Shown in pieces: positions 4,853 through 26,161 of a stretch of 64,000 nucleotides of DNA (position 1 is its first letter; every line of letters starts with the position of its first letter). The stretch is taken from NCBI GenBank assembly GCA_029266495.1, contig JAQSWS010000002.1, positions 1 to 64,000 of the forward strand. The letters are read 5' to 3'. The stretch comes from Rariglobus sp. Its GTDB lineage: Bacteria > Verrucomicrobiota > Verrucomicrobiia > Opitutales > Opitutaceae. A program made the translations under genes and the position numbers. Under the pieces are notes generated by a model. That model did not search any database. It was not told the origin of the DNA and saw nothing but the letters and a program-made list of their open reading frames with translations.

Positions 4853-5238
4853 ACTCACTCTCCAAAGAGGAAAAATGGCTCATCGAGCGGGAATTCATTG
4901 CCAAAGAAGCCCAGAAGGAGAAAACCCGGAAATTTCGACAGCGCGTTGCTATCGTCGGAATTGTGGCGGGAGTCGCAGCTGCATCCCTAAGCATTTTAGT
5001 CGGTGGATTTTTTATGCCGCTTATTCCAAAGATAATTTGGGTCATCTGCATAACTACATATCTAGGCGCAGACTCGCTACTCCCCTCTCTTTCTAAAGAT
5101 ATAAATTTCTACGCGCACATGAACCCGTGGAAGCAATCATTGGAATCATTATCCGACCCCAGGGACCTACCATTCGCCATCTCCCTCTTGGGATGCTACC
5201 ACTTAATTCGAGTTTTATTATCACTTGTCCTCTTTTAG
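4849..5238 (+). CDS. small membrane protein
   Basis: A 129-residue protein. A charged N-terminal segment (EEKWLIEREFIAKEAQKEK) precedes two close hydrophobic segments near residues 27-47 and 49-66, and a third lies at the very C-terminus. It starts at the ATGA overlap with the secreted protein gene. No family recognised. An immunity or partner role for the upstream product is possible but not shown. Confidence 0.6.
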   Translation: MNSLSKEEKWLIEREFIAKEAQKEKTRKFRQRVAIVGIVAGVAAASLSILVGGFFMPLIPKIIWVICITTYLGADSLLPSLSKDINFYAHMNPWKQSLESLSDPRDLPFAISLLGCYHLIRVLLSLVLF

Positions 5239-24599: not shown

Positions 24600-24642
24600 C
24601 CAAGCCCGGTTTGTCACTTAATAAGTGACAAACCGGGCTTGG
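24600..24642. terminator. 43-base perfect palindrome after the TonB receptor
   Basis: Two 21-base arms are exact reverse complements around a single central base, 37 bases after the receptor stop. The outer arm is CCAAGCCCGGTTTGTCAC. A hairpin this long could stop or protect the receptor transcript. No T-run follows on the plus strand. Confidence 0.75.
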
Positions 24643-24918
24643 TCGTTGGGCAGCAAAGCCGGGTCCGATTCATCGATAAAAACAGAAGTCGCCGTCAGCA
24701 ATGAAGCTGGCGGCGACTATTCTACTGCTTCGGGTTCAGAACCCGAATACCGCTGCTATGGCGGTTTTCTTCGTCTTACTATCTGGCGGAGTTAGTGACC
24801 TCTCGGTCACGTGGCTAATCTAGTCATCCCCGCTCAAATTTCATCCGGTTTTTTAAGTTTTTTCCGGCTTCATTTTGTAATCGCCCCGCCCCGGCGAACC
24901 CAACGCAGCCTTGCGTTG
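24643..24918. other. hairpin-dense noncoding stretch
   Basis: In 276 bases there are at least four more inverted repeats: a 13-bp stem with one G-T pair (24686-24717, AGTCGCCGTCAGC arm), TTCGGGTTC-A-GAACCCGAA (24729-24747), GTGACC-TCTC-GGTCAC (24795-24810) and CAACGCA-GCCT-TGCGTTG (24901-24918). A short frame from a GTG at 24625 to a TAG at 24793 could encode 56 residues, but the overlapping hairpins argue for a structured RNA or repeat. GC is lower than in flanking genes. It may be part of the leader of the threonine ammonia-lyase gene. Confidence 0.55.
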
Positions 24919-24957
24919 GATCCGCAGATCGGCATCGTTCGCTACCGCTTCACCGCA

Positions 24958-25044
24958 ATGACCTCCCGCAACGCCAACGCCCGCGCCATGATTATCGGCA
25001 TGATTATTATCCGCCGCCGGCCCGGGCATGGACACATCGCGTGA
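24958..25044 (+). CDS. Ile-rich leader peptide for attenuation
   Basis: A 28-codon ORF with five Ile codons in seven codons (segment MIIGMIIIRRRP), a sixth Ile near its end, and a TGA at 25042. It lies 116 bases before the threonine ammonia-lyase start and 36 bases before an intrinsic terminator. Short peptides loaded with codons for the regulated amino acid are the sensor in ribosome-mediated attenuation, and isoleucine is the end product of the pathway that this lyase opens. No Shine-Dalgarno is visible. An in-frame GTG at 24811 would give a longer product, but the classical arrangement fits the ATG at 24958. Confidence 0.78.
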   Translation: MTSRNANARAMIIGMIIIRRRPGHGHIA

Positions 25045-25079
25045 ACGCATAATTCATTTTAAAAACGCGACTCTCCACC

Positions 25080-25109
25080 AGCCCCGGGCCTCACAGCCCG
25101 GGGCTTTTT
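25080..25109 (+). terminator. attenuator (intrinsic terminator) before ilvA
   Basis: A 9-bp GC stem (25081-25089 with 25096-25104), extended by an A-T pair, a six-base loop and five T's. It lies between the Ile leader peptide and the lyase start at 25160. Bases 25019-25026 (GGCCCGGG), within the leader peptide's 3' half, are exactly complementary to 25083-25090 in the terminator's 5' arm, giving a possible antiterminator that excludes the terminator. Confidence 0.85.
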
Positions 25110-25159
25110 GTTGCCCGTTTTTCCCGACCCTCTCCGACCGTTTTTCCCAGTCCATCCAA

Positions 25160-26161
25160 ATGAATCCATCCCTCCTCACCCTTGACGATGTCGTCCACGC
25201 GCAAACCCGCCTGGCCGGCGGCGTTCGCGTCACTCCTTGCGCGCCCTCGGCGCGCCTCGGCGATCTGGCGGGCATGGAGATCATCGTGAAACACGACTAC
25301 CTTCAGGCGACCGGCTCCTTCAAGGAACGCGGCGCTCGCAACGCCCTCGCCAGCCTCACGCCCGCGCAACGCGCCCGCGGGGTGGTCGCCGCCTCGGCGG
25401 GCAACCACGCGCTCGGCCTCGCCTGGCACGGGCGAGAACTCGGAATCCCCGTGACCGTCGTCATGCCCCGCCAGGCCCCTCGGGTAAAGGCCGGCCGCTG
25501 CCATACGCTCGGCGCACAGGTTGTCCTTCACGGCGACACCTATGAAGACGCCTCCGCGCACGCCCTCGCACTCGCGGCAAACCAAGGACTCTCCTACGTG
25601 CACCCCTTTGACGATCTTGCGGTCATCGCGGGTCAGGGAACGCTGGCGCTGGAGGCCTTGCTCGCCGAACCCGACGTCGACGCCTTTGTGGTTCCGGTGG
25701 GTGGCGGTGGTCTGCTCGCGGGTGTCGCCACGGTCGTAAAAGCCTTGAGACCCGACGTGCGGGTGATCGGAGTCGAACCTGCACATGCGGCGGGCCTTGC
25801 CGCCGCGCGTCAGGCCGGTCGCCCCGTGCGCACGGCCACCTTGCCCACGCTCGCCGACGGCCTGGCGGTTGCGCTCACGGGGGCGCATCCGTTTGCGCAC
25901 GCCCAAGCCTTCGTCGACGACGTGGTCACGGTAAGCGAGGACGACCTCGCACTCGCGTTGCTCGCCGCCCATGAAGCCCATGGCGTCATGCTGGAAGGCG
26001 CAGGCGCCACCGCACTCGCCGCCTGCCTCGCCGGCCGTCTGCCGGACCTCTCCGGCAAACGCGTGCTCGTCGCCCTCACCGGGGCCAACATCGATCCCGC
26101 CAATCACGCCCGCGCCCTGCGCCGCGCACGCGTGTTGCGTGCGGAACAGGTCGCGGTGTGA
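25160..26161 (+). CDS. ilvA: threonine ammonia-lyase, short form
   Basis: A 333-residue PLP enzyme of the threonine/serine dehydratase family, converting threonine to 2-oxobutanoate and ammonia, the first step to isoleucine. The PLP lysine is in GSFKERGARNA, and the phosphate-binding Gly loop is VPVGGGGLLAG. The C-terminal ACT-like regulatory domain of long biosynthetic IlvA (about 510 residues) is absent, as in the TdcB short form. The Ile-codon leader and terminator upstream point to a biosynthetic role. Substrate choice between Thr and Ser is not certain. The ATG at 25160 begins MNPSLLTLDDV. Confidence 0.85.
   Translation: MNPSLLTLDDVVHAQTRLAGGVRVTPCAPSARLGDLAGMEIIVKHDYLQATGSFKERGARNALASLTPAQRARGVVAASAGNHALGLAWHGRELGIPVTVVMPRQAPRVKAGRCHTLGAQVVLHGDTYEDASAHALALAANQGLSYVHPFDDLAVIAGQGTLALEALLAEPDVDAFVVPVGGGGLLAGVATVVKALRPDVRVIGVEPAHAAGLAAARQAGRPVRTATLPTLADGLAVALTGAHPFAHAQAFVDDVVTVSEDDLALALLAAHEAHGVMLEGAGATALAACLAGRLPDLSGKRVLVALTGANIDPANHARALRRARVLRAEQVAV

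Follow-up and report, generated by a model that had tools for sequence, protein, structure and literature searches.

A predicted isoleucine-responsive attenuator before a short threonine ammonia-lyase gene of Opitutaceae, and parallel leaders before citramalate synthase

Attenuation is a textbook mechanism that has been described mainly in Proteobacteria, Firmicutes and Actinobacteria, with E. coli ilvL/ilvGMEDA as a ribosome-mediated attenuator of a branched-chain operon. Isoleucine synthesis can be entered through IlvA, the long form of which is under feedback control through an ACT domain, or through citramalate synthase (cimA), an alternative entry enzyme unrelated to IlvA. The locus described here resembles the branched-chain attenuators (E. 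coli ilvL/ilvGMEDA; C. glutamicum ilvBNC, PMC11857589, PMC10272879) in its short ORF of cognate codons, its intrinsic terminator and its alternative antiterminator pairing, but it stands before single entry-step genes (short ilvA or cimA) in Verrucomicrobiota, its control codons are nearly all Ile where those of the operons are Ile, Leu and Val, and two non-homologous genes share it. As in Sinorhizobium meliloti trpL (PMC7298713) the leader ORF is predicted to open at the transcript 5' end or a few nt from it, although the two systems differ in amino acid, in target gene and in the phylum of the host, and the leaderless state is here deduced from promoter spacing and is not clear for the locus in hand. 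In the open-licence literature our searches yielded nothing on Ile attenuators of Verrucomicrobiota and nothing on a cimA controlled by attenuation, which is weak evidence of absence; the mechanism is known, and its distribution over short ilvA and cimA appears to be undescribed.

Within the window, by which we mean the whole 64,000 nt stretch of Rariglobus sp. DNA analysed, the short threonine ammonia-lyase gene is with high confidence predicted to be controlled by a ribosome-mediated, isoleucine-responsive transcription attenuator. Its features are as follows.

24958..25044, + strand: leader peptide ORF encoding MTSRNANARAMIIGMIIIRRRPGHGHIA, 28 codons plus TGA, read from the sequence
24979..25027, + strand: candidate 1:2 hairpin enclosing the Ile codons (24979-24987 with 25019-25027), suggested by the MFE fold
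24991..25011, + strand: Ile control codons ATT ATC GGC ATG ATT ATT ATC, read from the sequence; Ile kept across relatives and ATT over-used relative to downstream genes
25019..25026, + strand: antiterminator strand 2, GGCCCGGG, exact complement of 25083-25090; duplex stronger when matched than when permuted over 61 loci
25080..25109, + strand: intrinsic terminator, arms 25080-25089 and 25096-25105, U-run 25105-25109; double changes keep its pairs across relatives
25160..26161, + strand: ilvA, predicted short threonine ammonia-lyase of 333 aa; Pfam PF00291 (PALP) only, no ACT; closest NCBIfam models are threonine ammonia-lyases

Direct reading of the sequence places the leader ORF between an ATG at 24958 and a TGA at 25042-25044, with Ile at codons 12, 13, 16, 17 and 18 (5 in 7 positions) and again at codon 27. 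The terminator hairpin (25080-25105) reads AGCCCCGGGC-CTCACA-GCCCGGGGCT, two 10-nt arms around a 6-nt loop followed by TTTTT at 25105-25109; on its own it has a folding energy of -22.9 kcal/mol, and 50 nt separate the end of the terminator from the ilvA ATG at 25160. GGCCCGGG at 25019-25026 matches CCCGGGCC (25083-25090) in the terminator 5' arm by exact complementarity, and the 158-nt leader folds better than 200/200 dinucleotide shuffles (z = -4.25). The original prediction, of a 28-codon ORF with five Ile in seven codons and a sixth near its end, a perfect terminator 50 bases before the lyase and an 8-base antiterminator match, proved exact in each of these respects. The locus has the parts of a ribosome-mediated attenuator, namely a translatable ORF rich in codons for the pathway product, an intrinsic terminator between that ORF and the gene and a co-varying antiterminator pairing with the terminator 5' arm. 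An alternative in-frame ilvA start at 25028, which would run through the terminator, was rejected and the start kept at 25160 because locus L007 has a stop in the frame corresponding to the 25028 opening.

The Ile-rich run is not a product of chance. Among ORF tails in 273 kb from 14 other loci at least five Ile in seven codons were found only in 5 genuine Opitutaceae leaders, and the only other hits inside the window were the antisense of the leader locus and an out-of-frame reading at 5132, after which inspection revealed no hairpin-plus-T-run. Nor does the run reflect background codon usage, because leaders favour ATT (198 ATT to 93 ATC in 61 leaders) whereas the downstream ilvA genes of ilvA-linked loci favour ATC (41 ATT to 236 ATC, plus 4 ATA). 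What the leaders conserve is Ile as an amino acid, with the choice between ATT and ATC varying, and this speaks against a non-ribosomal RNA switch such as a T-box or riboswitch sensing isoleucine or tRNA-Ile at the terminator. Elements of that type do regulate branched-chain genes in other phyla, and ppGpp riboswitches on ilvB have been mentioned (PMC10272879), but no Rfam family, T-box and known leaders or riboswitches included, matched the window at its gathering score and a relaxed search of 24850-25180 returned only chance-level matches (Thr_leader at E 3.9 and unrelated sRNAs), so that we regard such a switch as scarcely credible here. Elsewhere in the window a near-perfect long palindrome (CAAGCCCGGTTTGTCACTTAATAAGTGACAAACCGGGCTTGG, 24601-24642) lies just after a TonB-dependent receptor gene and is perhaps its terminator.

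In order to see how far the arrangement is conserved we looked across Opitutaceae (Verrucomicrobiota), taken as the family (f1), where the query, more distant homologues included, has matches at E <= 1e-40 in 113 of 150 genomes. Among the Opitutaceae loci read, an Ile leader and terminator precede each of the 16 short ilvA genes whose upstream region is available, a 17th (L005) being left out because a contig end cuts its upstream region, and precede none of about 47 long, ACT-bearing paralogues (0/47), the long form being called from some 80 extra codons beyond the matched catalytic part rather than from a domain scan of each protein. Orthologous leaders devoid of Ile codons, which would have spoken against the original prediction, did not occur at the 16 short-ilvA loci. 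The leaders fall into three sequence classes, with terminator AGCCCCGGGC and leader GGCCCGGG, terminator AGCCCTGAGC and leader CTCAGGGC, and terminator AACCCACGGCCGG, whose partner in the leader is GC-rich; from group to group the sequences of leader and terminator change while their pairing is retained, and in aligned relatives the terminator pairs are preserved by changes on both sides. As the register shifts by one between sequence classes, column-wise helix counting was dropped in favour of a permutation test of the antiterminator. Over 61 attenuators the duplex between leader and terminator 5' arm had a matched mean of -18.05 kcal/mol compared with -15.91 (sd 0.32) for permuted partners, with 0 of 5000 permutations as good, relatedness being uncorrected. 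These 61 loci come from two families (f1 and f14) and stand before two unrelated genes (ilvA and cimA). A plain terminator or spacer following a fortuitously Ile-rich ORF, with an ilvA promoter downstream of 25109, is very unlikely given that Ile leader, terminator and complementarity co-occur at all of them, before two unrelated genes of one step, even though the gap from terminator to ATG, only 50 nt, could hold such a promoter. The 16/16 loci and the co-variation of leader and terminator lend strong support to the core of the original prediction, in which an Ile leader and a terminator/antiterminator switch precede a short IlvA.

Two further loci were observed alongside these. At L053 (G021:C56:232862-233933) an intact Ile leader and terminator precede a short ilvA with stop codons and a shifted frame, apparently a decaying gene, in a genome that retains an ACT-form ilvA. 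At L059 (G026:C115:11153-11287) a decayed leader, similar to those of class-B ilvA, has neither Ile run nor terminator, and no short ilvA was found in that genome.

The 333-aa IlvA carries the PALP catalytic domain (PF00291, 267.8 bits), and Pfam finds no other domain in it, which bears out the claim of a lyase lacking an ACT-like domain. It shares this catalytic domain with the one-ACT threonine ammonia-lyases (PRK07334/TIGR01127), its best-scoring models, but has no C-terminal ACT and scores below both curated cut-offs (PRK07334, 342.7 against 496 bits; TIGR01127, 311 against 378.75). Since its structurally solved relatives are also a mixture of catabolic and biosynthetic threonine dehydratases and serine racemases, the threonine ammonia-lyase reaction is one that we infer. 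It is the only such lyase found in the window's genome (99.75% complete), the next matches being 28% and 26% identical.

It had also been suggested that attenuation may replace allosteric inhibition, for which there is only partial support. That the attenuator evolved in order to replace the lost ACT feedback domain is compatible with the attenuator reading and would account for the perfect split within Opitutaceae (leader with 16/16 short forms and 0/47 ACT forms), but we hold it to be a doubtful proposition, as ACT loss seems to amount to about one event in a poorly resolved part of the tree, so that the association may rest on a single change. In a quick ilvA tree with weak deep branches and an arbitrary root the short forms group together save for two unresolved rows, with f14 adjoining and the leaderless long forms beyond. 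Furthermore, of 9 matching ilvA genes in f14, a family of the same class, 8 were read and all 8 have an Ile leader before a long-form gene, and in the one whose product was searched for the domain ACT is matched at E 9e-6 with 25.8 bits, the cut-off being 27. The one attenuated CimA tested likewise retains its LeuA allosteric domain. Judged from the f14 genes, in which an Ile leader stands before a long ilvA, ACT-matching in the one tested, attenuation is not strictly tied to ACT loss.

A covariance model of the ilvA leaders (R1) also matched leaders before citramalate synthase in Opitutaceae, and in total an Ile leader and terminator precede cimA in 37 of the 115 genomes whose cimA upstream region was read. 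None of the 15 short-ilvA genomes tested has an attenuated cimA (hypergeometric P 0.0018, with relatedness of the genomes ignored), and no genome among those checked carries the attenuator on both genes. The window's genome encodes a citramalate synthase (model TIGR00977), and inspection showed neither Ile leader nor terminator upstream of it; the ilvB and a leuA-like gene (C31) inspected in the same genome also have no Ile leader, and an R1 search for further copies there returned only a terminator near an unrelated gene and chance-level terminators. The original prediction, strongly supported as to the ilvA attenuator, had missed both the parallel cimA attenuators and the un-attenuated cimA of the same genome. 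In one further member of the family, G129, an attenuated short ilvA occurs together with an ACT-form ilvA and no full citramalate synthase match, and cimA may have been lost in part of Opitutaceae.

Leaders of the two genes were compared by pairwise alignment and with a second covariance model (R2). The window leader and the cimA leader of genome G010 are very probably homologous, because their identity (76 of 91 nt; alignment score 97, where codon shuffling reached at most 38) extends beyond the Ile codons. Class B and f14 leaders are less similar to cimA leaders, several being no better than the shuffled control, and here the likeness may be convergent. An in-situ swap of cimA for ilvA behind one leader was rejected, as the neighbourhoods compared share no genes; what moved or was copied between these two genes, which are not homologous but serve one step, was therefore probably the element. 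We give about an even chance to the wider reading that the Ile attenuator is an exchangeable module, in which homologous leader DNA moved or was copied between ilvA and cimA with one entry enzyme per lineage and a leader peptide made from a leaderless transcript.

R2, trained on 28 leaders of which most belong to cimA, was searched over 388 Verrucomicrobiota genomes. Its 17 strong hits (E 1.6e-13 or better) all fall at previously identified f1/f14 loci, either of cimA or of ilvA, one of the latter being a broken copy. With E values between 1e-13 and 1e-16 it recovered class-B ilvA leaders outside its training set (G003, G049, G021 and G006). After the strong hits the values drop to E 1e-6 or weaker, and those inspected here include Ile/Val leaders of ilvB as well as unrelated terminators. 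Family f22, also of Verrucomicrobiota, has long leader peptides rich in Ile and Val, followed by terminators, upstream of ilvB (L067, L069, L070 and L074), apparently an attenuator distinct from the one described here.

The DNA itself shows the anatomy and its conservation, the co-variation of leader with terminator, the distribution over genes and the likeness of the window leader to a cimA leader, and we infer ribosome stalling, read-through, the response to isoleucine in vivo and leaderless translation. When charged Ile-tRNA is scarce the ribosome would stall at leader codons 12-18, leaving strand 2 (25019-25026) free to pair with the terminator 5' arm (25083-25090) and allowing polymerase to read into ilvA; with plentiful isoleucine the ribosome would cover strand 2 and the terminator would form at 25080-25109. 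This switch was examined with a partition-function model in which the ribosome footprint is masked and the RNA is taken before synthesis of the terminator 3' arm. In 54 of the 61 loci a ribosome halted on the Ile codons left more predicted 2:3 pairs than one at the stop codon; the means were 7.81 stalled, 4.03 at the stop and 6.28 with no ribosome. For the window the values were 9.0, 7.0 and 9.0, a weak difference from a crude model that captures the off-state poorly, since the antiterminator is nearly the same with a stalled ribosome as with none and still has 7 pairs at the stop.

Upstream of 55 of the 61 leaders lies a T[TCG]GACA (TNGACA) box, a median of 38 nt away from the earliest start codon in frame. 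Taken as a -35 element of usual geometry, it would have transcription begin 2-3 nt ahead of the ORF. Most of the 61 leaders have no Shine-Dalgarno match of more than 3 nt. Together these suggest translation from leaderless mRNA at most loci, which is not clear for the window, as no good -35 box was found before its leader; the TNGACA box is missing at five other ilvA leaders among the 61 loci as well.

In Opitutaceae the attenuator would thus guard the entry to isoleucine synthesis, before short ilvA or cimA and never both in the genomes checked. About 60 natural variants in Verrucomicrobiota, in which leader and terminator change together, provide a set on which the mechanism could be tested in a phylum new to it. 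That one kind of control stands before two unrelated enzymes, apparently never both in one genome, makes it testable whether regulation follows flux control across alternative pathway entries, and the distribution of the attenuator makes testable whether transcriptional control can substitute for a lost allosteric domain.
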